This document shows, in pieces, positions 11,108 to 36,100 of a DNA stretch of 64,000 nucleotides (positions are counted from its first letter, which is position 1; each line of letters begins with the position of its first letter). This DNA comes from Rhodospirillum rubrum ATCC 11170 (GTDB taxonomy: Bacteria; Pseudomonadota; Alphaproteobacteria; Rhodospirillales; Rhodospirillaceae): positions 2,279,001-2,343,000 of the forward strand of contig NC_007643.1 in NCBI RefSeq assembly GCF_000013085.1, written 5' to 3'. The position numbers and the translations under genes were made by a program. Under the pieces are notes generated by a model. That model worked only from the letters and a program-made list of their open reading frames with translations, did no database searches and was not told the origin of the DNA.

Positions 11108-11153
11108 GAAAAAAAGCCCCCCGGGAGCCGCCGATCAAGGGCTCCCGGGGGGC
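11108..11153 (-). terminator. Rho-independent terminator of trpB
   Basis: A perfect 14-bp inverted repeat (11116-11129 with 11140-11153, arms GCCCCCCGGGAGCC and its complement) around a 10-base loop. On the minus strand it is followed by seven T residues (11115-11109). It lies 32 bases after the trpB stop and is among the strongest terminators in the window. Confidence 0.92.
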
Positions 11154-11184
11154 GAGGCTTTCACGCCGAAACCGGCGATCGGGA

Positions 11185-12543
11185 TCAGTCGATAACCGGC
11201 AGATCGGCCAAGGCTTCGTCAAGCAGACTGTCGTCGAACACCCGGTCCTTGAGCTTTCCGGCCAAATAATCCGTATAGGCCTGCATGTCGAAATGGCCGT
11301 GGCCCGACAGATTGAACAGGATCGTCCGCGCCTTGCCTTCGGCCTTGGCCAGCAAGGCTTCGTCGATGGCGGCCTTAACCGCATGCGAAGACTCGGGTGC
11401 GGGAACGATGCCTTCGTTGCGGGCGAATTGCAGGGCGGCGGCGAAGCATTCGGTCTGGTGATAGGACCGCGCCTCCATCAGGCCCAGTTCCTTGACGTGG
11501 CTGACCATCGGCGACATGCCGTGGTAGCGCAGGCCGCCGGAATGCGAGCCGGGCGGCATGAAGGTGGCGCCCAGGGTATGCATCTTCATCAAGGGCGTCA
11601 GCTTGGCCGTATCGCCGAAATCATAGGCATAGCGGCCCTTGGTCAGGGTCGGGCAGGAATGGGGTTCGACGCCGACGATGCGGATCGACCGCCCCTTGAT
11701 CTTCTCGCGGATATAGGGGAAGGCCAGTCCGGCGAAGTTCGAGCCGCCGCCGGTGCAGGCGATCACCACATCGGGCTCGTCGCCGGCCATCTCCATCTGT
11801 AACAGCGCTTCTTCGCCGATCACCGTCTGATGCAGGCAGACGTGATTGAGGACGCTGCCCAGGGCGTATTTGGTGTCGTCATGGGCGATGGCGACCTCGA
11901 CCGCCTCGGAAATGGCGATGCCGAGCGAGCCGTTGGACTCCGGGTCGCGGGCCAGAATGGCGCGGCCGGCCTCGGTCAGCGGCGAGGGGCTGGGAATGCA
12001 GGTGGCGCCATAGGTTTCCATCAGCGCCCGGCGATAGGGCTTCTGATTGAACGACACCTTGACCATGAACACTTGGACTTCCAGGCCGAACAGCGATCCG
12101 GCGAAGGCCAGCGAACAGCCCCATTGGCCGGCGCCGGTTTCGGTCGCCAGCTTCTTGACGCCCTCTTGCTGGTTATAGAACGCCTGGGGGACCGAGGTAT
12201 TGGGCTTATGGCTGCCCGCCGGGCTCACGCCTTCGTATTTGAAGTAGATATGGGCGGGGGTATCAAGGGCGCGCTCGAGCCGCCGGGCGCGGATCAGCGG
12301 CGACGGCCGCCACAGGCGATACACCTCGCGCACCGGTTCGGGGATATCGATCCAGCGCTCGGCGCTCATCTCCTGCTCGATCACCGCGCGCGGGAAGATC
12401 GGCGCCAGATCATCGGCGACCAATGGCTTCAGCGTTCCGGGGTTGAGCGGCGGCGGCAGGGGCACGGGCAGATCGGCGGCCAGATTGTACCAGGCCTTGG
12501 GCAACCGATCTTCGGACAGCAGGTATTTGGTACTCTCGGTCAT
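11185..12543 (-). CDS. trpB: Tryptophan synthase beta chain, TrpB2 type
   Basis: A 452-residue PLP enzyme. The PLP lysine is Lys113 in [11 protein letters not shown], and the phosphate loop [10 protein letters not shown] follows later. The extended N terminus and overall length (about 450 rather than 400) mark the TrpB2 class, which acts on indole and serine without a tight TrpA partner. No trpA is adjacent, and a canonical trpBA pair is expected elsewhere. The neighbouring iorAB handles indolepyruvate, so a role in indole recycling is plausible but only inferred. It is monocistronic, ending in a strong terminator. Confidence 0.88.
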
Positions 12544-23939: not shown

Positions 23940-24015
23940 GCCCGCGCCCCCCTCGCCGTGATTGGCCAAGGGTGACGCCAAAGCCGGGCAAAAGGTTCCC
24001 GAAGGCGGCGAAAGC

Positions 24016-24435
24016 TCAAGGGGTGGACGGGGCGGGGGCGGAAACGACCTCGCCGTCCTCCTTGGTGAAGGACCCGACCAAGGGAGTGGGCAGGATGGCC
24101 AGAACCGCTTCCGAAGGCCGGCACAAGGCCGCGCCCTTGGCGGTGACGACGATCGGCCGATTGATCAGGATGGGATGGGCGACCATGGCGTCGATCAGGG
24201 CGTCGTCGGACAGCGCCGGATCCTCAAGCCCGAGGGCGTCAAAGGGCGTGCCCTTGCGCCGCAGCAAATCGCGCACGGGGATCGCCAGAACGGCGATCAG
24301 ATCGACCAATTCGGCCCGCGACAGCGGCGTTTTCAGATAGTCGATCACCCGGGGCTCTTCGCCGCTCTGACGGATCATCGCCAGCACGTTGCGCGAGGTT
24401 CCGCAGGCCGGATTATGATAAATGGTGACGCCCAT
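24016..24435 (-). CDS. arsC: ArsC-family arsenate reductase
   Basis: A 139-residue thioredoxin-fold protein. The active-site Cys11 is in YHNPACGTSRNVL, and INRPIVVTAKGAALCRPSE supplies the arginines that bind arsenate in E. coli-type ArsC. It would reduce arsenate with glutathione and glutaredoxin. There is no arsB or arsR beside it, so a minor or different role, as for YffB/Spx-like relatives, cannot be excluded. It is 24 bases downstream of the C39-like gene and may share its transcript. Confidence 0.82.
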   Translation of the reverse strand: MGVTIYHNPACGTSRNVLAMIRQSGEEPRVIDYLKTPLSRAELVDLIAVLAIPVRDLLRRKGTPFDALGLEDPALSDDALIDAMVAHPILINRPIVVTAKGAALCRPSEAVLAILPTPLVGSFTKEDGEVVSAPAPSTP

Positions 24436-24459
24436 CGCCTTGCCCTCGCCGCCAAATCG

Positions 24460-24897
24460 TCAGATATCGAAAACCAGCAGGTCGCCGCACCACAGCGGGC
24501 CCAGATCATCGCGATCGAGCGATAGGCGGGTTACCTCCCCCGGCTCGTCGTCGTCGCCGTCCTCGCGCACCAGCACGGCGGCGGGGCCGCCCTCGGCCTC
24601 CTCGCCCTCGAAGCCATCAAGGATCGCCGTCGATTGGTCGCGAAAGATCATCAAGGCCGGCAAAGCGTCCCGCAAGGCCCCCAGACCCCGCCAGTCCAGG
24701 CGATGGTGGCGGGCGGGAAGACCGATCTCGGCGGCGACCGCCAGCACGGTGGCCAGCGAGACCGGATCGCCGGTGAAGCCATGGCGGGTTCCCACGGCGC
24801 GCGGATCGACCGACAGGCCGCGTCCCCGGGCCAGAGTCGTCAGGCGGCGCAGGAAACAGGTGTCAACCTCGAGGCCGGGCAAGGATCCTTCAGGCAT
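24460..24897 (-). CDS. Stand-alone C39-like domain protein
   Basis: A 145-residue protein resembling the N-terminal C39-like domain of type I secretion ABC transporters of the LapB/LssB type: CFLRRLTTLARGRGL, LATVLAVAAEIGLPARHH, then ALPALMIFRDQSTAIL. The catalytic cysteine-histidine pair of true C39 peptidases is not evident, as in other degenerate C39-like domains that only bind substrate. No membrane or ATPase part follows. The start at 24897 has GGGAGA nine bases upstream. It lies 14 bases after merR. Function unknown. Confidence 0.6.
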   Translation of the reverse strand: MPEGSLPGLEVDTCFLRRLTTLARGRGLSVDPRAVGTRHGFTGDPVSLATVLAVAAEIGLPARHHRLDWRGLGALRDALPALMIFRDQSTAILDGFEGEEAEGGPAAVLVREDGDDDEPGEVTRLSLDRDDLGPLWCGDLLVFDI

Positions 24898-24911
24898 GGC
24901 GCTTCGTCTCC

Positions 24912-25319
24912 CTAGCCCACGGCCTTGCGCGAACGCGGGCCTTCCAGCAGAGCCTGCCGGCATTGGGCTTCCACGGCCTCGATCTCGTCGATGGTGATGC
25001 GGATATCCTCCATCTGCTGGCGCAAGGCGGCGCGCGAGGTCTGGCAGGTGGTGATCAGGCGGCGCAACTGAGCCTCGCCCGTCGGCTCCGCATCATACAG
25101 ATCGATGATCTCCTGGATTTCCTTCAGCGAAAACCCCAGGCGCTTGCCGCGCAGGATCAGCATCAGCCGCACCCGGTCGCGCGGCGAATAGATGCGGCGC
25201 ATCCCGTCGCGGGCCGGGGTGATCAGCCCCTTGTCCTCATAGAAACGGATCGCCCGCGGGGTTACGGAGAACTCGGCGGCGAGATCGGCGATGGAGAAAC
25301 TGTCACGGCTCTTGGTCAT
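24912..25319 (-). CDS. MerR-family regulator, LiuR-like
   Basis: A 135-residue MerR protein. The winged helix begins SFSIADLAAEFSVTPRAIRFY, with the following EDKGLITPARDGMRRIYSP, and a coiled-coil dimerisation helix takes up the C-terminal half. It lacks the cysteines of metal sensors and resembles the LiuR/SoxR-like group linked to acyl-CoA breakdown. The start at 25319 is used rather than a longer frame because a palindromic operator (25328-25339) occupies the bases just upstream. It heads a possible unit with the C39-like and arsC genes. Confidence 0.82.
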   Translation of the reverse strand: MTKSRDSFSIADLAAEFSVTPRAIRFYEDKGLITPARDGMRRIYSPRDRVRLMLILRGKRLGFSLKEIQEIIDLYDAEPTGEAQLRRLITTCQTSRAALRQQMEDIRITIDEIEAVEAQCRQALLEGPRSRKAVG

Positions 25320-25327
25320 GGACCATA

Positions 25328-25339
25328 CTTTACGTAAAG
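25328..25339. promoter_or_regulatory. Putative MerR/LiuR-type operator
   Basis: CTTTACGTAAAG is a perfect 12-bp palindrome eight bases upstream of the merR start. It resembles the TTTACGTAAA-type sites bound by LiuR-like MerR proteins. Autoregulation is inferred. Confidence 0.6.
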
Positions 25340-25403
25340 GGCAAGTCAGCGTCGAGAACTTTGATCGCTTCCAAAACACACCCCGGCGGCGGACCCGTCC
25401 CTC

Positions 25404-26834
25404 TCAGGGCATCAGGAACAGCGAGGCCAGTCCGAGGAAGGCGAAAAAACCGACCACATCGGTGATCGTCGTCAGGAAAACCGCCGAGGCGATGGCGGGA
25501 TCGATCCGCATGCGCTCCAGGGCCAGGGGAATGACGATGCCCGACAGGCCGGCCACCGCCAGATTGATGACCATCGCCGCGGCGATGATCAAGCCGATTT
25601 CCGGGCGATCGAACCAGATCCAGGCGATCGCCCCGATCAGCACGGCGAAAACGACGCCGTTGAGGATGCCGACCAGAAATTCCTTGCCGATGATCCGCCA
25701 GGCGTTCGATGGCGTCAGTTCCTTGGTGGCCAGCGAGCGCACGGCGACGGTCAGCGCCTGGGTGCCGGCATTGCCGCCCATCGAGGCGACGATCGGCATC
25801 AGAACGGCCAGGGCGACGATCGATTGCAAGGTCGCCTCGAACAGGCCGATCACCAGAGAGGCGAGAATGGCGGTGATCAGATTGACCCCCAGCCACGAGG
25901 CCCGCGCCTTCACCGTATCGACGACGGCGCGATAGAGGTCGACCTCGGCGACGCCAGCCAGGCGCAGCATGTCGTCCTCGGCCTCCTCCTCGATCACGTC
26001 AAGAACGTCATCGACGGTGATCCGCCCGACCAGACGGCCCGAGACGTCAATCACCGGGGCGCTCATTAGGTTGCGATCGCGAAACAGCCGAGCCACCTCC
26101 CCCTGATCGGCGGTGGTCGACAGCGGCGGCATCTCGGCGTCCATGATGTCGCGCAGGCGGATGGAACGCTGGCTGCGCAGCAGCGTCGACAAGCGCAATT
26201 GCCCGACCGGGCGGTGGCGCGGATCGACGACATAGATCTCGTGGAAATCCTCGGGCAGGCGCGGGGCCGAGCGCAGGTAGTCCAGGGTCTCGCCGACCGA
26301 CCAATAGGCCGGAACCGCCACCAGCTCGCGCTGCATCAGCCGCCCGGCGGAATACTCGGGCAGCGACAGGCCCTGTTCGATCAGCGCCCGCGTCGCCACG
26401 GGCAGGCGTTCGAGGACGGCGGCCTGTTCGGCCTCGTCAAGCTGGGCGACGACATACAAGGCGTCATCGGAATCAAGCTCGGCCAGGGCCTGGGCCAGAT
26501 CCTGATAGCCCAGGGTCTCGATCACCTCGTCGCGGACGTAGTCATCGAGCTCGGGCAGGATTTCGGGGTCGAAGGCGCCCTTGAGCGCGCCGATCAGCGC
26601 CCGGCGATCCTCGGCGGGCAGGCTTTGGACAAGGTCGGCCTGATCGGCGTAGTGGAGGCGCAGCACCAGGGCGCGCGCCGTCTCGGCCCCGCGTGCCGCC
26701 TCCTCGTCATCCAGGGCGGCGCGAACCGCCTCGATCTGGTCGCGCGACAGGCCGAAGCCATCCTCGGCCGGGGCGGCGTCGTCTTGCGTCTTGTCCCGAT
26801 CGCCCGTCTTTTCCCGATCGCCAAGTCCGGCCAT
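25404..26834 (-). CDS. mgtE: Magnesium transporter MgtE
   Basis: A 476-residue MgtE channel. It has an N-terminal superhelical N domain (LVQSLPAEDRRALIGAL, LAELDSDDALYVVAQL), then tandem CBS domains (about 150-280, with DIMDAEMPPLSTTADQGEV), then five membrane helices from about residue 300. The pore-entry segment MPIVASMGGNAGTQALTVAVR is present. Cytoplasmic magnesium bound by the N and CBS domains gates the channel. The start at 26834 has GGGAG upstream. Confidence 0.93.
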   Translation of the reverse strand: MAGLGDREKTGDRDKTQDDAAPAEDGFGLSRDQIEAVRAALDDEEAARGAETARALVLRLHYADQADLVQSLPAEDRRALIGALKGAFDPEILPELDDYVRDEVIETLGYQDLAQALAELDSDDALYVVAQLDEAEQAAVLERLPVATRALIEQGLSLPEYSAGRLMQRELVAVPAYWSVGETLDYLRSAPRLPEDFHEIYVVDPRHRPVGQLRLSTLLRSQRSIRLRDIMDAEMPPLSTTADQGEVARLFRDRNLMSAPVIDVSGRLVGRITVDDVLDVIEEEAEDDMLRLAGVAEVDLYRAVVDTVKARASWLGVNLITAILASLVIGLFEATLQSIVALAVLMPIVASMGGNAGTQALTVAVRSLATKELTPSNAWRIIGKEFLVGILNGVVFAVLIGAIAWIWFDRPEIGLIIAAAMVINLAVAGLSGIVIPLALERMRIDPAIASAVFLTTITDVVGFFAFLGLASLFLMP

Positions 26835-26876
26835 TGCCGACTCCCGCTTTTTTACATCGCGATCCCGGACGTGACA

Positions 26877-26908
26877 GGGGCCCGCCGGCATTGCGCCGGA
26901 CGGGCCCC
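26877..26908 (-). terminator. Hairpin after tRNA-Leu
   Basis: Arms 26877-26889 and 26896-26908 pair over 12-13 bp (GGGGCCCG core) around a short loop. It lies between the tRNA 3' end and mgtE. It has no T run, so it may be an imperfect terminator or a processing barrier. Confidence 0.5.
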
Positions 26909-26923
26909 TTGGTCAGTCTTTAT

Positions 26924-27010
26924 TGGTGCGGTCGAGAAGACTCGAACTTCCACGGCCTTTCGGCCACAGCGACCTCAACGCTGCGCGTCTACCAGTTCCG
27001 CCACGACCGC
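26924..27010 (-). tRNA. tRNA-Leu(GAG)
   Basis: The 87-nt gene has acceptor arms GCGGTCG and CGACCGC. The D arm contains TGGTAGACGC. The anticodon stem CAGCG/CGCTG surrounds loop TTGAGGT, giving anticodon GAG for CUC/CUU. A long variable arm (GGCCGAAAGGCC) and T loop TTCGAGT complete the class II leucine form. CCA is encoded. Confidence 0.96.
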
Positions 27011-27188
27011 ATCGTGGACTTGTCGTCGGTAGAAAGGGACATCCCCTTGAGGTCGGGAGCCCTGGTCTCGCTGGTTTTTGGCGTTTCGCTTCTTGCCCTG
27101 CGAGGGCGGATGAAATAGCAAACCCCTTGGACCTCGGCAATCCCTTTTCTTTCACGCCTCGCACTTTTTTTCGAAGGATCCCGTCGTT

Positions 27189-27839
27189 ATGGAGTGGCGT
27201 TTCGCCGATACCCCCGTTTCCTACCCCGAAGCCCTGGCCTTCATGGACGACCGCATCGCCAAGATCCGCGAGGATCGGGCCGGGGAATGCGTCTGGCTGC
27301 TTGAACACCCCCCGCTTTATACGGCGGGGACCAGCGCCGATCCGGCCGACCTGCTCAGCCCCGATCGCTTTCCGGTCTATGCCGCCGGGCGCGGCGGCCA
27401 ATACACCTATCATGGCCCCGGCCAACGCGTCGGCTATGTGATGCTCGACCTGCGTCGACGCGGCAAGGACGTGCGCTGCTTCGTGCATAATCTGGAAGAG
27501 CTGATGATCCGCGCCCTGGCCGAGTTCAATATCCGGGGCGAGCGCCGCGAGGGCCGGGTCGGCATCTGGGTGGCGCGCGGCGGCGGACGCGAGGACAAGA
27601 TCGGCGCCATCGGCGTGCGGGTCCGCCATTGGATCACCTTCCACGGCTTCGCCCTCAACGTCGAACCCGATCTGTCGCATTTCTCGGGCATCGTGCCCTG
27701 CGGCATCAGCGACCACGGGGTGACCAGCCTGTGGGATCTGGGCCAGACGGCGACACTCCAAGAGGTTGATTCCGCTTTGATGCGCAGCTTTGATGCGGTA
27801 TTTGGGCCCTGCCCGACGGAAAGCTTGACCTCGACGTGA
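27189..27839 (+). CDS. lipB: Octanoyl-[acyl carrier protein]:protein N-octanoyltransferase
   Basis: A 216-residue LipB that moves octanoate from acyl carrier protein to lipoyl domains, the first step of lipoate synthesis. The substrate pocket [16 protein letters not shown], catalytic Lys137 (EDKIGAIGV) and thioester Cys171 (GIVPCGIS) are all present. AAGGA precedes the ATG by about ten bases. It stands alone; lipA is not in the window. Confidence 0.95.
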
Positions 27840-27871
27840 ACCAATCGCGCCAAATATGCGTAGTATAGGCC

Positions 27872-28765
27872 ATGAAAGCGCCCTCTCCTCCTCTGCGCGC
27901 TCTGCTCATGACCGCGCTCTCGCCGCTGTTCGCCGCCTGTACGGTGGGAACGCTGAACGCGATCATTCCGTCCGATGGCTATCGGTCGCAAACCAATGTC
28001 GCCTATGGTCCCGACCCCCGCCAAAGGCTTGATGTCCATGTGCCCGTCGCCGCCGCGCCGGCCGATGGGCGGCCGGTGGCGGTATGGATCTATGGCGGCT
28101 CGTGGCAAAGCGGCGCGCGCGGCGACTACGCCTTTATCGCCGATACCCTGGCCGCGCTCGGCTGGATCACGGTCATTCCCGATTACCGGCTGTTCCCCGA
28201 GGTGCGCTTCCCCGCCTTTGTGGAGGACACCGCCCAGGCCGTGGCCTGGACAAGGTCGGAGCAGGCCCGCGACATTCTGGGGCCGACCAATGGCACCCTG
28301 GTGCTGATGGGCCATTCCGCCGGCGCCTATAACGCGGCGATGGTGGCTTATGATCCGCAGTGGCTGCGCGCGGCGCGGGCCGATCCGGCGATGGTCAGCG
28401 GGTTCGTCGGTCTGGCCGGCCCCTATAACCTGTTCCCCTATGACGTCGAGGTGACCAAGCGGGTCTTCGGCCACGAAACCGACCCCACCGTGGTCGAACC
28501 CTTGAGCCATATCACCGCCGCCTCGCCCCCGGCCCTGCTGGTCACCGGCCTGCGCGACACCGTCGTCGGCCCCTATCATACCGACGCCATGGAAGCAGCC
28601 TTGGCCGCCAAGGGCGTGGATCATAGGACGGTGCGCCTGGCCGACGCCAACCATGCCGGGGTGGTTCTGGGCCTGACCCGCTATTTCCGCGACAAGGCGC
28701 TGACGGTGCCCTTGGCGGCCTTTCTAAAAGGCCTGGAAAAGCCCGCGCCCCGACACGACGGTTGA
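27872..28765 (+). CDS. Alpha/beta hydrolase lipoprotein, esterase-like
   Basis: A 297-residue hydrolase with a signal peptide ending in a lipobox (LFAAC, Cys23), so it is probably membrane-anchored on the outside. Catalytic features are the oxyanion segment IYGGSW, the nucleophile Ser149 in GHSAGAYN, an acid in GLRDTVVG and a histidine in NHAGV. It resembles the BD-FAE/kynurenine-formamidase-like esterases. It is 32 bases after lipB and 108 before the RubisCO-like gene; a link to either is not evident. Confidence 0.8.
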   Translation: MKAPSPPLRALLMTALSPLFAACTVGTLNAIIPSDGYRSQTNVAYGPDPRQRLDVHVPVAAAPADGRPVAVWIYGGSWQSGARGDYAFIADTLAALGWITVIPDYRLFPEVRFPAFVEDTAQAVAWTRSEQARDILGPTNGTLVLMGHSAGAYNAAMVAYDPQWLRAARADPAMVSGFVGLAGPYNLFPYDVEVTKRVFGHETDPTVVEPLSHITAASPPALLVTGLRDTVVGPYHTDAMEAALAAKGVDHRTVRLADANHAGVVLGLTRYFRDKALTVPLAAFLKGLEKPAPRHDG

Positions 28766-28873
28766 CCGGGCGGCCGTTCACCCGATATTTCCCATCTGGA
28801 TCGGAGCGTTCTTGCGAATTCTCCACAAGCGTTCTGATGATCGGACCCTTCGGCGGGCCGCGGGAGACATCGC

Positions 28874-29998
28874 ATGACGGACAGACTGCGCGCGACCTAT
28901 CGGGTAAAGGCGACGGCGGCGTCGATCGAGGCCCGGGCCAAGGGAATCGCCGTTGAGCAGAGCGTTGAAATGCCGCTCTCGGCCATCGATGACCCGGCGG
29001 TTCTCGACGGCATCGTCGGCGTGGTCGAGGAGATCACCGAGCGCGGCGAGGACTGCTTCGAGGTGCGACTCGCCCTGTCGACCGCCACCATCGGCGGCGA
29101 TGCCGGTCAGCTTTTCAACATGCTGTTTGGCAACACCTCGCTGCAAGACGACACCGTCTTGCTTGATATCGATCTGCCCGACGATCTTCTGGCCAGCTTC
29201 GGCGGGCCCAATATCGGCGCGGCCGGCCTGCGCGCCCGGGTTGGGGCTTCGGCCGATCGGGCGCTGACCTGTTCGGCGCTCAAGCCCCAGGGACTGCCGC
29301 CCGACCGTCTGGCCGATCTGGCGCGGCGCATGGCGCTGGGCGGCCTGGATTTCATCAAGGACGATCACGGCATGGCCGATCAGGCCTATGCGCCCTTCGC
29401 CTCGCGGGTCGGCGCGGTGGCCGCGGCCGTCGACGAGGTCAACCGCCAGACCGGCGGCCAGACCCGCTACCTGCCCAGCCTGTCGGGCCACCTTGATCAG
29501 TTGCGTAGCCAAGTGCGCACCGGGCTTGACCATGGGATCGATACCTTCCTGATCGCGCCGATGATCGTTGGCCCTTCGACCTTTCACGCGGTGGTCCGCG
29601 AATTTCCCGGGGCGGCCTTCTTCGCCCATCCCACCCTGGCCGGACCGTCGCGCATCGCCCCGCCGGCCCATTTCGGCAAGCTGTTCCGCCTGCTTGGCGC
29701 CGATGCGGTGATTTTTCCCAATTCGGGCGGCCGCTTTGGCTATTCCCGCGACACCTGCCAAGCGGTGGCCGAGGCGGCGCTTGGCCCCTGGGGCGGCCTG
29801 CATGCCAGCCTGCCGGTGCCGGCCGGCGGCATGAGCCTTGCCCGCGTTCCCGAAATGATCGCGACCTATGGCCCCGATGTCATCGTGCTGATCGGTGGCA
29901 ACCTGCTTGAAGCCCGCGACCGCCTGACCGAAGAAACCGCCGCCTTCGTCGCCTCGGTGGCCGGGGCCGCAAGCCGAGGCTGCGGGTTGGCGCCGTAG
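28874..29998 (+). CDS. RubisCO-like protein, methylthioribulose-1-phosphate isomerase type
   Basis: A 374-residue RubisCO-like protein. In R. rubrum this protein isomerises 5-methylthioribulose 1-phosphate to 1-methylthioxylulose 5-phosphate (established there; applied here by inference). Lys137 in ALKPQG and the carbamylation lysine Lys162 in FIKDDHG are kept. The metal-ligand Glu of true RubisCO, found next after KxD, is His165 here. The loop-6 lysine region reads NSGGRFGYS with no lysine. The length is 80-90 residues shorter than form II RubisCO. GGGAG precedes the ATG. The partner cupin begins 934 bases downstream, beyond brnTA on the other strand. Confidence 0.92.
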   Translation: MTDRLRATYRVKATAASIEARAKGIAVEQSVEMPLSAIDDPAVLDGIVGVVEEITERGEDCFEVRLALSTATIGGDAGQLFNMLFGNTSLQDDTVLLDIDLPDDLLASFGGPNIGAAGLRARVGASADRALTCSALKPQGLPPDRLADLARRMALGGLDFIKDDHGMADQAYAPFASRVGAVAAAVDEVNRQTGGQTRYLPSLSGHLDQLRSQVRTGLDHGIDTFLIAPMIVGPSTFHAVVREFPGAAFFAHPTLAGPSRIAPPAHFGKLFRLLGADAVIFPNSGGRFGYSRDTCQAVAEAALGPWGGLHASLPVPAGGMSLARVPEMIATYGPDVIVLIGGNLLEARDRLTEETAAFVASVAGAASRGCGLAP

Positions 29999-30067
29999 AG
30001 AATAAAGCGAAGCCTCGTCCCACTCTGGTCAAGGTCGCCAAGGGATTTGGTCCACGCTAGAAAAAGG

Positions 30068-30382
30068 TCAGCGTTTTGACCTCAACTCGCTTTCCATATA
30101 CGCCCTCAGAACCGCGTTGATACGGGTTTGATAGCGGGTGCTGGTGGTTTTAAAAAACGCCAGGACGTCTTTATCAAGGCGGATACTTACGGCTTCTTTA
30201 AGGGGAGGCTCGACAATCGCCGCTTGCGCGAACCACGCCTCGTCGGCAAGGGGTGCCGCATCAAGATCGGCTGTGACCGCATCTTCGATGTCGGCATCGG
30301 TCAGGACATCGAAGCGAGACCAATCACTCTCCTTGGTTTTTGGCGACGCCAGCGAGCGTCGCGTAATACGTTCTTCGCTCAC
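30068..30382 (-). CDS. brnA: BrnA-family antitoxin
   Basis: A 104-residue antitoxin. The C-terminal ribbon-helix-helix-like part, SIRLDKDVLAFFKTTSTRYQ then TRINAVLRAYM, is typical of BrnA, which binds BrnT and its own promoter. The middle has an acidic stretch LTDADIEDAVTADLDAAPL. GTG at 30382 is taken as the start because family members begin MSxERI as here. The gene overlaps the end of brnT by 59 bases, longer than usual, so a downstream start is possible. Confidence 0.85.
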   Translation of the reverse strand: MSEERITRRSLASPKTKESDWSRFDVLTDADIEDAVTADLDAAPLADEAWFAQAAIVEPPLKEAVSIRLDKDVLAFFKTTSTRYQTRINAVLRAYMESELRSKR

Positions 30383-30617
30383 GTGTTTGCGCCTTTCGTG
30401 CTGAAATAATCCGACATACCGTACCACGCCACGTGTAAACAACCGCGATAACCCGAGAGTTCACCTCTCCAAAAGCAATAAATCTATCTTCATTACCAAT
30501 TTTCTTGCCTTGAGCCGTTGCAATGACCCCATTCCATATCAAGATGGCATCTTCAAAATCAATGCCATGCTTAACTATATTTGTTTTATTTTTACTCTCG
30601 TCCCACTCAAATTCCAT
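30324..30617 (-). CDS. brnT: BrnT-family ribonuclease toxin
   Basis: A 97-residue RelE-fold toxin beginning MEFEWDESKNKTNIVKHGID, the standard BrnT opening, followed by FEDAILIWNG and a late RIISARKAQTRERR. BrnT cleaves mRNA when free. Codons and flanks are much richer in A and T than the neighbouring metabolic genes, which suggests recent arrival. It is oriented against the RubisCO-like gene and the cupin gene and lies between them. Confidence 0.88.
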   Translation of the reverse strand: MEFEWDESKNKTNIVKHGIDFEDAILIWNGVIATAQGKKIGNEDRFIAFGEVNSRVIAVVYTWRGTVCRIISARKAQTRERRTYYATLAGVAKNQGE

Positions 30618-30932
30618 TTTTGGAGACTCTAAAATGAAACTTTATTTAGAAATAACCAAAAATGTTTTTGATCCTTCATGATCTGGCCGCACCTTTCTGA
30701 TAGGAAGGGAAGAGCGTCCTTATAAGAGAAAGAGAGCATCACTCTGACGATATGACAAAATAACCAGGCCCCTAGCGCAGGCAGATCCCTGCCCTGTATA
30801 TACAAACGTAAATCACCCTTGAAGTCCTGTCAAAAAACGCGGCGATTTTCCACCTGACCGATCGAAAAATCCGCATCTCCCGCCGTTATCCGTCAGGAAC
30901 TCCGCCGGTGAAAAATGATGGAGAGCCCATTC
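30618..30932. other. Intergenic region between brnT and the cupin gene
   Basis: A 315-base gap with no gene. The first 50 bases are AT rich and should hold the brnT promoter and BrnA operator. A perfect TGTATATACA palindrome is at 30795-30804. The right part should hold the cupin promoter. No SAM-type riboswitch fold was recognised, although it would make sense for a methionine-salvage gene. Confidence 0.4.
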
Positions 30933-31403
30933 ATGAGTGATTCGAACGACGACCGGCCCTTTCGGCCCTTTCAATCCCAGTATCGCTGGCCGGGCGTCGA
31001 TCTGCTCGCCTATAAGGAGGAAGGCAGCGCGCCCTTTCGCTCGGTCACCCGTCAGGTGCTGTTCTCGGGCAATGGATTGACCGGCGAGCTGCGCTATTTC
31101 GAGGTTGGGCCGGGCGGTCATTCGACCCTGGAGCGCCACCAGCACGCCCATGGGGTGATGATCCTCAAGGGCCGGGGCCATGCCATGGTCGGCCGGGCGG
31201 TGAGCGCGGTCGCGCCTTATGATCTGGTGACGATTCCGGGGTGGAGCTGGCACCAGTTCCGCGCCCCAGCCGACGAAGCCTTGGGCTTCCTATGCATGGT
31301 CAACGCCGAACGCGACAAGCCCCAGCTGCCGACCGAGGCCGATCTGGCGATGCTGCGCGCCGACGACGCGGTCGCGGCCTTCCTTGACGGGCTGGCGGGA
31401 TAA
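30933..31403 (+). CDS. Cupin, 1-methylthioxylulose-5-phosphate methylsulfurylase type
   Basis: A 156-residue single-domain cupin. In R. rubrum the cupin beside the RubisCO-like gene removes methanethiol from methylthioxylulose 5-phosphate to give 1-deoxyxylulose 5-phosphate, an isoprenoid precursor. Likely metal ligands are Glu67, His69, His73 (in LERHQHAHG) and His107 (WSWHQF). Cys121 (GFLCMVNA) is the only cysteine, fitting a catalytic thiol. The start at 30933 has GGAGAG seven bases upstream; an ATG 18 bases earlier has none. Confidence 0.9.
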   Translation: MSDSNDDRPFRPFQSQYRWPGVDLLAYKEEGSAPFRSVTRQVLFSGNGLTGELRYFEVGPGGHSTLERHQHAHGVMILKGRGHAMVGRAVSAVAPYDLVTIPGWSWHQFRAPADEALGFLCMVNAERDKPQLPTEADLAMLRADDAVAAFLDGLAG

Positions 31404-31448
31404 GGGGCTCCGGCCGGGAGACGATCGCCGGCCGGGGCGCCCGGAGGG

Positions 31449-31515
31449 TTAGAGCGGCGCGCGTGAAACCAAAGTCCGCGCATACCGCTCTAACATGCTG
31501 ATATTTAAGCAAATC
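31449..31515. repeat. Intergenic repeat: TTAGAGCGG hairpin plus TTTAAGCAAATC
   Basis: TTAGAGCGG (31449-31457) pairs with CCGCTCTAA (31485-31493) to form a hairpin after the cupin gene. TTTAAGCAAATC follows at 31504-31515 and matches 18949-18960. Related TTAGAGCGG...CTCTAGAA strings occur near 16808-16836 and CTCTAGAA near 36079. This looks like a dispersed intergenic element. Confidence 0.5.
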
Positions 31516-31553
31516 TCTGTCGCAGTCTGCTTCAGAATGCTAAGGGATCTGCT

Positions 31554-32606
31554 CTAGAAGCGATAGGACAGGCTGATCGATCCGAAGATATCGGGCTTGT
31601 CCTGACCGTCGAATTCGGGCGAGCGGATGGCCTGGGTATAGGTCACCCGGGTATTGCCAAGGGTCACCGCCACGCCGGCCTGAACGTCGCCCACGAAGAT
31701 CTTCTTGTCGACGCTGGGGCTGTCGCGGAAGGTGTTGCCATCGAGGAAGATGTTGCGGGCGACGGCGCGGCCTTCGACGCCGGCGAACAGATAGCCGCCC
31801 AGACCGCCGGTCGGTTCGAACTGGGTCGAGCCGGGAAGGCTGGGGCGGATGCGCGGCGGGCCGTAATCATCGGGCAGGTTGAAGCCGACCCGCACGGTGC
31901 CGCCACCGGCGGCATAGGTATAAACGTTGCCCAGGGCGGCGCCGGCATGGGGCGAGAAGTCGAAGCCCAGGCCACCGGCCTTGAAGCTGCCCAAGGCCCG
32001 CCACATGCGTTCGTAATAGAGCACGGCGCCCGGCTCGTTATGCAATTGCGAGCCCCAGCCCTTGGCCGTATCGACGCCGATCAGGCTATGGAAGTTGTTC
32101 TGGGTCTCTTCGCCCAGGGCCCAGGGACCGACCACGCCCAAGTCGATTTCCAGGCGGTCAAGGGTATTGCCGGTTTCGGCCAGATAGCCCAGGCCGATAT
32201 AGGTCCAGCCCGCATAGGGGCGATCATCGGGATCGGGATCATCGGCCTGGGTGTCGGACGGCGTGAAAATGCTCTGACCAAAGCTCAGGCTGTAGCGCTT
32301 GATCGAATTGGTCGGAAAGAACGGCAAGGCGTTGCCGACTTCCTGGGCCCAGATCGGCATATCGCCGGTCCCCGACAACCAGGTGGCATGAAGGCCGTTG
32401 GTGTAATGCTGGTCGGTCCCGGAAAAGCCGAACTTGTCGTTTTCAACCTGAATCGACAGCGTGCCGTCATCCCACTTGGGATAATAGGACGGCGTACCGG
32501 TATCGGGATCGATCTGTTCGGTCGGATCGGCGGCGCTGGCGGGCGCGGCGACCACGGCGCAGCCCAGTGCGGCGGCCCCTAGAAGGGAAAACATCGGGCG
32601 CATCAT
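31554..32606 (-). CDS. LpxR-like outer-membrane protein (DUF2219)
   Basis: A 350-residue protein with a signal peptide (AAALGCAVVAAPASAA) and a beta-rich body ending in a C-terminal Phe (SISLSYRF), as in outer-membrane barrels. ENDKFG (55-60) and TDQHYTNGL (64-72) match the active-site strands of LpxR, which removes the 3'-acyloxyacyl chain from lipid A; DDRPYAGW is also a family block. The start at 32606 has GGAG about ten bases upstream. Expected to modify lipopolysaccharide. Confidence 0.82.
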   Translation of the reverse strand: MMRPMFSLLGAAALGCAVVAAPASAADPTEQIDPDTGTPSYYPKWDDGTLSIQVENDKFGFSGTDQHYTNGLHATWLSGTGDMPIWAQEVGNALPFFPTNSIKRYSLSFGQSIFTPSDTQADDPDPDDRPYAGWTYIGLGYLAETGNTLDRLEIDLGVVGPWALGEETQNNFHSLIGVDTAKGWGSQLHNEPGAVLYYERMWRALGSFKAGGLGFDFSPHAGAALGNVYTYAAGGGTVRVGFNLPDDYGPPRIRPSLPGSTQFEPTGGLGGYLFAGVEGRAVARNIFLDGNTFRDSPSVDKKIFVGDVQAGVAVTLGNTRVTYTQAIRSPEFDGQDKPDIFGSISLSYRF

Positions 32607-32882
32607 CGGACGCGAACTCCACAAATTGGAAGAGGTCTGGGGGGTGACGGGAGGAACGGGGGTGGAGACCGCAAAAAGGCGGCATGACGGCAAGAAGATG
32701 CTCTTTCGCGCCGCAAAAGAAAACGCCTTGAATGGCTCGTGGTTGCGAAAAATCTTGAATAAGCCCGCATGCCCTATCCCGGCACCGCCGACCAGCCGCT
32801 AGACAGCGCTCAGTCGGGGTGATTTGCTGATCCTACCGCCGTTCCCCCCCTCCCCCAAGCCTGGACCGCCTCAAGGACTGTC

Positions 32883-33806
32883 ATGACGATTCTTTTCAAC
32901 GGCCCGACACTTCCCCAAGAGATCTGGCAAACGGCGCTGCACCGCGCCCTGGCGCCGCGCCCGCTGGCCGTCTGGCCCGATGTCGATCCGGCTAGCGTCT
33001 CCACCCTGATCTGCTGGCGCCATGGCGAAGCGATCATTCCCCACTTGCCCAACCTGCAAAGGGTGATCACCCTAAGCGCCGGAGTCGATCACCTGCTGGC
33101 CGCCGGCCTGCCCGAAGGGGTGGAGATCATCCGCCTGGAAGACGCCGGCATGGGGGCGCAGATGGCCGAATACGCCCTGCATTGGGCCCTGCATTTCCAG
33201 CGCGACTTTGATCGCCACATCGCCGCCACCCGGGCCGGCCTGTGGGAAAAACGCCCCTATCGCCCGGCCTCTGACCTTCCTTGCGGCATCCTCGGCTTTG
33301 GAACCCTGGGCCGGGTGGTCGCCGATCGCCTGCTCGCCGCCGGCTTTCCAGTCAATGGCTGGTCGCGCCGCGGCCAGGGCTATCCGGGCGTGCGCCCCTT
33401 TGCCGGAGCCGATCACCTGGAAGCCTTCCTGAAGGCCAGCGAGATCGTCATCAATCTGCTGCCGGCCACGCCGGAAACCCGCCATCTGCTTGATGAGCGG
33501 CGCTTGGCCGCCCTGCGCCCGGGCGCCGTGGTGATCAACCTCGGACGGGGGGCGACCCTCGACGAGGCGGCGCTGATCGCCGCCCTGAACGCGGGCGCCT
33601 TGCGCGCCGCCGTTCTGGATGTCACCGACCCCGAGCCCCCGGCCGCCGACAGCCCCTTGCGCCGCCATCCCGCCGTCAGCCTGACCCCGCATCTCGCCGC
33701 CGAAACCCTGCCCGACCCGGCCGCCGCCCAGGTCGCCCGGGTGATCAAGGCGGTGGAGCGCGGCGAAACACCCCCCGGTCTGGTCGCCCGTGACCGGGGG
33801 TATTAA
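32883..33806 (+). CDS. ghrA: 2-hydroxyacid dehydrogenase, GhrA-like
   Basis: A 307-residue D-isomer-specific 2-hydroxyacid dehydrogenase that would reduce glyoxylate or hydroxypyruvate. The nucleotide-binding segment is CGILGFGTLGRVVADRL (about 134-150). Catalytic Arg is expected in NLGRGATLDE, Glu in DVTDPEP, and His in LTPHLAAET. The order and short length match GhrA. AAGGA precedes the ATG. The next gene is convergent, 11 bases away. Confidence 0.88.
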   Translation: MTILFNGPTLPQEIWQTALHRALAPRPLAVWPDVDPASVSTLICWRHGEAIIPHLPNLQRVITLSAGVDHLLAAGLPEGVEIIRLEDAGMGAQMAEYALHWALHFQRDFDRHIAATRAGLWEKRPYRPASDLPCGILGFGTLGRVVADRLLAAGFPVNGWSRRGQGYPGVRPFAGADHLEAFLKASEIVINLLPATPETRHLLDERRLAALRPGAVVINLGRGATLDEAALIAALNAGALRAAVLDVTDPEPPAADSPLRRHPAVSLTPHLAAETLPDPAAAQVARVIKAVERGETPPGLVARDRGY

Positions 33807-33817
33807 AAAACGCTCCC

Positions 33818-35941
33818 TCAGCGCCCGGTCGAGCGCCGGGGACGGCCCCGGCCGGGCTTGGCGCCCGGCGCCGCGTCGCGCGGGCAGGACGGGGCGCCGC
33901 GCGTCGGGTCATAGGGGCCTTGGCCCTGGCGGGTTTGCTGGGTAAGGAAGGTTTGGGCACCGTTCTTGCGCCCGGCCCGCGCCCCCTCGCCGCCGGCCAA
34001 TCCGGTGCCGGTGGGCTGGTGGCCGGGGATCAGGTGCTTCTTGCTCATGCCGATCAGATCGGTACGGCCCATCTGGCGCAGGGCCTCGCGCAGCATCGGC
34101 CAGTTCTCGGGATCGTGGTAGCGCAAGAAGGCCTTGTGCAGACGGCGCTGGCGCAGGCCCTTGGCCGTCGCCACCACCGGCCCGTCGCGGCGCACCGGCT
34201 TCAAGGGGTTGCGCTCGCCGTGGTACATGGCGGTGGCCAGCGACATCGGCGAGGGCAGGAAGGTTTGCACCTGATCGGCGCGGAAGTGATTGCGCTTGAG
34301 CCACAGGGCAAGGTTCATCATATCCTCATCCGTGGTTCCCGGATGGGCGGCGATGAAATAGGGGATGAGGAACTGCTGCTTGCCGGCCTGCTTGCTGAAG
34401 GTCTCGAACAGGGCGCGGAAGCGATCATAGGCTCCCATGCCCGGCTTCATCATCAGCGCCAGCGGCCCGTCCTCGGTATGTTCCGGGGCGATCTTCAGAT
34501 AGCCGCCGACATGGTGGGTGACCAGTTCCTTGACATAGGCCGGGGTCTTGACCGCCAGATCGTAGCGCAGGCCCGAGGCGATGGTGATCTTCTTCACGCC
34601 CTGGATGGCGCGGGCCTTGCGATACAGATCGACCAGCGGCGTCTGATCGGTTTCCAGGTTCTTGCAGATATCGGGATAGACGCAAGACCAGCGCCGGCAG
34701 ACCGCCTGGATCTTGGGGTCACTGCAATTCAGCCGCCACATATTGGCCGTCGGCCCGCCCAGGTCGGAGACGACGCCGGTGAAGCCCTCGGTCTTGTCGC
34801 GAATCTGTTCGATCTCGCGCAGGATGGAGCCTTCCGAACGGCTTTGGATCACCTTGCCCTCGTGCTCGGTGATCGAGCAGAACGAACAGCCGCCAAAACA
34901 GCCGCGCATGACATTGACCGAGAAGCGGATCATCTCCCAGGCGGGAATGCGCGCCCCGCCATAGGACGGATGGGGGGCGCGGGCATAGGGCAGTTCGAAC
35001 ACCCGGTCCATCTCGCCGGTTTCCAGGGGCAGCGGCGGCGGATTGAGCCAGACCTCGCGGTCGCCATGGGCCTGGACCAGCGGCCGGGCATGGCCGGGAT
35101 TGCTTTCCAGATGGCCGACGCGGCTGGCGTGGGTGTATTGCACCGGATCGTCGCGCACCACCTCGTAGGACGGCAGGCGGATGACCGCAGGCACCCCTAG
35201 GGGACCGCGCGGCATGGCGCCGCTGTCGGCATCGACATCGCTGGCGTCAAGCACCGCCCAGCCTTCGGGAACCCTGGGCAGCATATAGGCGGTGCCGCGC
35301 AGGTCGCGGATGGTCGAAATCGCCTCGCCCTTGGCCAAGCGGTGGGCCAACTCGATCAAGGCCCGCTCGGCATTGCCAAACAGCAAGATATCGGCCTTGG
35401 AATCAAGCATCACCGAGCGCCGCACCTTGTCGGACCAATAATCATAATGGGCGACCCGGCGCAGCGAGGCCTCGATGCCGCCAAGCACGATCGGCACATC
35501 GCGAAAGGCCTCGCGGCAACGCTGGGAATAGACGGTGACGGCGCGATCGGGGCGGCGCCCACCCTCGGCGCCCGGGGTATAGGCGTCGTCCTTGCGGATC
35601 TTGCGGTCCGAGGTATAGCGGTTGACCATGGAATCCATGTTGCCCGCCGTCACCCCGAAGAACAGCGTCGGCCGGCCCAGTGCGCGGAAGGGGTCGGCGC
35701 TGGTCCAATCGGGTTGGCTGATGATGCCGACGCGGAAGCCCTGGGCTTCAAGAACGCGGCCGATCACCGCCATGCCGAAGCTGGCATGATCGACATAGGC
35801 ATCGCCGGTCACCACGATGATGTCGCAGGCGTCCCAGCCAAGCGCGTCCATCTCGGCCCGCGACATCGGCAAAAAAGGCGCCGTGCCCAGGCGCTTGGCC
35901 CAGAACGGCTTATAGGAAAACAGGCTTTTGGCGGCTTCCAC
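33818..35941 (-). CDS. YgiQ-family radical SAM protein
   Basis: A 707-residue protein. The radical SAM cluster cysteines are Cys348, Cys352 and Cys355 in [12 protein letters not shown]. An N-terminal cobalamin-binding-like region precedes it ([18 protein letters not shown], and [11 protein letters not shown]). The C-terminal 60 residues are basic and low in complexity, with RxGRGRPRR-like repeats. The reaction is unknown. It is well conserved across bacteria and usually stands alone, as here. Confidence 0.9.
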
Positions 35942-36100
35942 TCTATCCTCCGGCTCCCGCGGACGCCCCCCCGCCGCCGGATACTTTAAAAACGCTTGCT
36001 GGGGGCGAGTTTTACCCTAAGGCGCGGCGGAAACAAAGCACGGCCCGCAGCGCCACCGCCTTATCTCTGAAAATTCGCTCTAGAATACTTCTCTAGATCA

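Follow-up and report, generated by a model that had tools for sequence, protein, structure and literature searches.

The RubisCO-like protein (RLP) gene and the cupin gene examined here are, with high confidence, the characterised MTA-isoprenoid shunt pair of Rhodospirillum rubrum, between which a brnTA toxin-antitoxin module was inserted in the R. rubrum lineage. The shunt of Rru_A1998 and Rru_A2000 is an already known system, found here in the species where it was described. The split by brnTA is the one fresh detail, of modest interest; the rest was already known. According to PMC4958253, the R. rubrum genome consists of a 4,352,825-bp chromosome and a 53,732-bp plasmid, 4,406,557 bp in total.

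Locus layout

In the window, meaning the whole stretch of 64,000 nt that was analysed, the RLP gene (Rru_A1998, 374 aa) is an open reading frame at 28874..29998 on the plus strand, matching Pfam RuBisCO_large at E 5.3e-18. The cupin gene (Rru_A2000, 156 aa, with a lone cysteine, Cys121) lies on the same strand at 30933..31403, and was recognised by the Pfam model Cupin_2 and by identity to PDB entry 3jzv. The two are parted by a 934-nt segment (29999..30932) with a low GC content of 0.48. Two adjacent domains on its minus strand mark brnT, a ribonuclease-toxin gene of 97 aa at 30324..30617 (BrnT_toxin, 85.6 bits against a cut-off of 34.5), and brnA, an antitoxin gene of about 104 aa at 30068..30382 (BrnA_antitoxin, 66.8 bits against 26.1). 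RLP, cupin, BrnT and BrnA all exceed their curated Pfam cut-offs (4/4). Directly downstream of the cupin gene, and convergent with it, Pfam places a gene for an LpxR-family outer-membrane protein (31554-32693, minus strand).

Identity of the cupin and the RLP

Residues 2-156 of the cupin are identical to 3jzv, deposited as 'uncharacterized protein Rru_A2000', with the first Met aligning with a Leu of the construct; the identity to the characterised protein is therefore anything but low. The longest cupin frame starts at ATG 30915 (162 aa) and also ends at 31403, which would number the single cysteine 127. It is residue 121 only with ATG 30933, a start that is preceded 9 nt upstream by GGAG, as judged by eye, and that also agrees with the 3jzv construct. 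Cys121 was invariant, together with His69, His71, His73 and His107, in 84/84 aligned cupins, a set that includes four probable duplicate rows and omits L004, L027, L050 and L074 as broken or partial, so neither the metal ligands nor the cysteine have been lost. We take Cys121 to have the catalytic role given to it in the 2012 literature.

The RLP was assigned to Rru_A1998 by place rather than by alignment: on the plus strand, the gene that next precedes Rru_A2000 is RuBisCO-like. A PDB search with it found no identical chain; the top match, 3qfw (E 2e-117), is a related but different protein. The original prediction, that the RLP and the one-cysteine cupin match the R. rubrum pair, holds in the fullest sense, since they are that pair itself.

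K137 and the stretch K162-D163-D164-H165 of the RLP were kept in 91/91 aligned rows, of which four are probably duplicates and one is the remote relative L092; these residues probably have a functional role. At the position of H165, the enolase 2oek aligns with a glutamate, and true RubisCO also has a glutamate at the equivalent position. No NCBIfam model scored above its cut-off. The best sub-threshold match was the model for MtnW, the DK-MTP-1-P enolase (NF007095, 153.4 bits against a cut-off of 409), and TIGR03332 gave 108.6 bits against 513.6. By these scores the RLP falls short of the MtnW family, and automatic annotation may misname it. The sole further RLP relative in the genome at E <= 0.001 (2794726-2795796) is 29% identical and is taken to be the form II RubisCO.

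The prediction had also called the system already described, and the steps of A1998 and A2000 are indeed in print (PMC4958253). There, A1998, taken here as a DeepYkr-type RLP, is presented as 5-methylthioribulose-1-phosphate 1,3-isomerase converting MTRu-1P to MTXu-5P, with the activity reported for Rru_A1998. A2000 is presented as 1-methylthioxylulose-5-phosphate methylsulfurylase, turning that product into methanethiol and DXP. Deletion of A1998 abolishes MTXu-5P and, as the same paper cites, methanethiol formation. An isomer ratio of 3:1 and mediation of the cupin step by glutathione are stated in PMC5893883. Following these published accounts, MTA would be cleaved and then isomerised elsewhere, by MtnP and MtnA, to methylthioribulose 1-phosphate. 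The RLP would isomerise this compound, with methylthioxylulose 5-phosphate as the main product. Using glutathione, the cupin would then form a methylthio-glutathione adduct as well as 1-deoxyxylulose 5-phosphate, and the adduct probably releases methanethiol for use in making methionine. The significance of the pathway, an O2-independent coupling of sulfur salvage with isoprenoid synthesis in which methanethiol is released, is likewise in print.

Gap between the RLP and cupin genes in other genomes

The R. rubrum gap was compared with that of 85 other loci, comprising the best 80 of 159 confirmed relatives and five extra family loci. Gaps were estimated from the residue aligning with the R. 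rubrum cupin start, not from called start codons. Excluded from the 85 were the R. rubrum locus itself (L001) and its own 29% relative (L002), four loci (L085, L086, L088, L090) taken as duplicates of L048, L065, L041 and L071, the locus L092 (39% identity), whose genome (G072) gave no cupin at E <= 1e-20, and L093-L103, which are repeat retrievals of the same places.

In 75/85 loci, the cupin lay on the same strand as the RLP, its start an estimated 50 nt or less away from the stop of the RLP, too short a distance for an intervening gene. This count leans to close relatives, because 80 of the loci are the top-ranking ones among 159. The gap was 51-200 nt in five loci and above 200 nt in two (L044, 1361 nt; L057, 321 nt). 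In the rest, the cupin frame was broken (L004), the contig stopped 33 nt past the RLP (L033), or there was no cupin (L058). The R. rubrum genes, at 934 nt with opposite-strand genes between them, do not form a tight pair. In L084 the RLP stop and the cupin ATG share nucleotides; an overlap in L003 was ruled out by the ORF list, which gives an RLP end of 1718 and a cupin start of 1725. Downstream of the L058 RLP (11200-12219, minus strand) no cupin match was found within 9,970 nt, and the next long frame, on the opposite strand, resembles by eye a cysteine-synthase-type enzyme.

A joint RLP and cupin tree of 79 rows grouped R. rubrum with L007, L009 and L010. All four belong to a clade of 13 (support 0.85), in which the 12 members besides R. 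rubrum have estimated gaps between -4 and 28 nt. In the family, the RLP was found in 11 and the cupin in 10 of 73 genomes, R. rubrum counted; the sole other genome of the same genus (G038) gave neither at E <= 1e-20.

When the R. rubrum brnT and brnA were searched against the best 80 of the 159 loci (tblastn, E <= 1e-4), no match lay between RLP and cupin. The only matches were in L060 and L075, where they lie past the cupin. Divergent brnTA genes in the flanks may be missed by this search, since in L075 it hit BrnA only and passed over a BrnT that Pfam detects. The opposite-strand split that had been predicted is therefore real, as Pfam identifies both genes, and among the compared loci it was seen in R. 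rubrum only. Comparison suggests that the ancestral state was a tight RLP-cupin pair, and that the low-GC module would have entered between the two, on the opposite strand, in the R. rubrum lineage. The simplest reading would be one lineage-specific insertion. In the literature searched for the tags Rru_A1998, Rru_A1999 and Rru_A2000, Rru_A1999 did not occur and no discussion of the split was found; the 2012 primary papers may discuss it.

The pair appears to be splittable elsewhere too. In L044 (Methylocapsa aurea), an opposite-strand Cupin_8 gene (11113-12084, minus strand), unrelated to brnTA, occupies the same place and represents an independent split. A decayed copy of this gene was suspected by eye in L057, and was dismissed when tblastn gave no match at E <= 1.

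The brnTA module

The BrnT protein matched PDB entries 7vd7, a 'toxin' (E 1.9e-11), and 3u97, 'Ribonuclease toxin BrnT' (E 1.2e-07). The brnA frame has its stop at 30068 and is open to 30442, with GTG 30382 as the probable start. Neither protein matched NCBIfam at E <= 0.001.

The GC content of the 934-nt insert (0.48) compares with 0.66 for the 64-kb window, in which it is the lowest-GC stretch of its size. When the scan was made in 10-nt steps, the only equally low segments were four starting at 30001-30051. A search of the insert flanks for mobile-element ends found no second genomic copy better than E 0.31. An exact 12-nt repeat (30014-30025 and 30597-30608) brackets brnA and most of brnT. 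Two were found against 0.02 expected in the window; the repeat was spotted after the fact, and one copy is coding sequence of brnT. It is a possible recombination scar, and suggestive only.

Flanking genes were compared by clustering the reading frames within 6 kb. The cupin formed the largest cluster (68/85 loci), and clusters near +200 (42, 36 and 20 loci) are taken to be alternative reading frames across the cupin gene. A cluster of ABC ATPases (21 loci) was discounted as a conserved neighbour, the family being very common. The remaining clusters held 19, 16, 16, 13, 13 and fewer loci, the larger ones mostly upstream, and may include a neighbour that is conserved in some of the loci.

Promoter, terminator and motif searches

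A sigma-70-like match (TTGACC-16-GATATT, 28762..28789, plus strand) precedes the RLP gene, and another (TTCAAA-18-TATATT, 30552..30581, plus strand) lies in brnT, facing the cupin. Both agree at 9/12 positions and are weak, as the region holds three such matches against 0.9 +/- 0.9 in shuffled sequences. By eye, TTGnCn-17-TAnnnT recurs upstream of the RLP in several family members. No plus-strand terminator-like site was found between RLP and cupin. This absence says little, since shuffled versions of the region as a whole contained more of these sites than the region itself (3.1 against 2). A search for riboswitches and other known RNAs in 24000-36000 at E <= 1 returned only a tRNA (26927-27010, minus strand) and two matches below the gathering score, Guanidine-II and P10. 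An EM search for a shared MTA-response motif in the upstream regions of 84 loci yielded ATCGACaTCAACCC, which scored far above three shuffled sets; it is a candidate motif only, and might instead reflect coding or other sequence conserved among some of the close relatives.

Alternative explanations for the locus and its expression

The identity of the cupin with 3jzv, that is with Rru_A2000, contradicts the idea that the genes come from another bacterium and are only homologous to the characterised pair, which we regard as extremely improbable. We also consider it very unlikely that brnTA, rather than having been inserted by chance, has long been a functional partner of the pathway that couples its control to stress. 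Such a partnership would be in line with the BrnT genes that lie directly downstream of the RLP-cupin pair in L060 (2261-2888) and L075 (6635-7301). However, neither brnT nor brnA gave a match at E <= 1e-4 in the 78 others of the best 80 loci, although many of these offer little flanking sequence. In the five extra family loci, the gaps are too small to hold a gene. Moreover, the BrnT partner in L060 is an HTH_3 protein, with no BrnA seen beside BrnT; the partner in L075 is BrnA. Matches to brnT occur in 25/73 family genomes (R. rubrum included), so chance neighbours are likely. The BrnA frame of L075 (6861-7301) also encodes a ClpB D2-small domain, which extends to where the contig stops, through either a fusion or an assembly join.

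As the original prediction pointed out, a transcript shared by RLP and cupin would have to cross brnTA, which is true by geometry. How the cupin is expressed admits two main answers, and we lean towards the one in which it is transcribed at least partly from its own promoter in or next to the insert. Less probable, though far from negligible, is read-through, in which an MTA-inducible RLP transcript continues antisense across brnTA into the cupin, making one unit with brnTA as a passenger. In PMC4334135, taken to be the aerobic study cited by PMC4958253, qRT-PCR at 20 min after MTA gave +4.3 for A1998 and +3.1 for A2000, and RNA-seq is stated to have reconfirmed the qRT-PCR results for R. rubrum. 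These transcript data suggest common control, as a shared transcript would give. The tight pair that was probably ancestral also favours read-through, as does the lack of a terminator-like site, uninformative as it is against shuffles. Against it, PMC4958253 reports unequal protein induction during anaerobic growth. A1998 rose 7 +/- 3-fold in transcript and 8.13-fold in protein, whereas A2000 protein stands at 0.96 in the table, yet the text says that the cupin 'showed changes'. The protein data thus suggest unequal control. Furthermore, a largely untranslated RNA stretch of 934 nt would be expected, on general grounds, to invite Rho-dependent termination. Taken together, the expression data in these two sources fit partly uncoupled control, without proof.

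Beyond a separate cupin promoter, the insertion may, though this is an improbable extension, have rewired the pathway. MTA-induced transcription from the RLP, antisense to brnTA, would then tie toxin-antitoxin expression to the state of sulfur salvage, and the cupin would have a separate, less MTA-responsive promoter derived from the AT-rich insert. Such rewiring, if true, would account for the unequal anaerobic induction of RLP and cupin. The locus is a small natural experiment, in which a toxin-antitoxin module splits a conserved enzyme pair in the very species where the pathway was characterised. Conclusions on expression drawn in R. rubrum, such as anaerobic induction of the RLP with hardly any of the cupin, may therefore not transfer to those relatives in which the pair is intact.

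Comparison with known systems

The R. rubrum MTA-isoprenoid shunt, as described in PMC4958253, involves the same organism and the same genes as this locus, with no difference. The RPA2169 and RPA2170 proteins of Rhodopseudomonas palustris resemble the R. rubrum pair with 53% and 56% identity, and deletion and metabolite tests showed that they carry out the same steps (PMC5893883). R. palustris differs in that the consecutive tags RPA2169 and RPA2170 leave no annotated gene between, whereas the R. rubrum pair is split. The intervening genes are like BrnTA type II toxin-antitoxin modules (PF04365/PF14384) in having both subunits, with the toxin gene first and overlapping frames. Unlike the usual BrnTA, the R. 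rubrum module, with its predicted toxin, sits on the opposite strand within an otherwise conserved metabolic gene pair.
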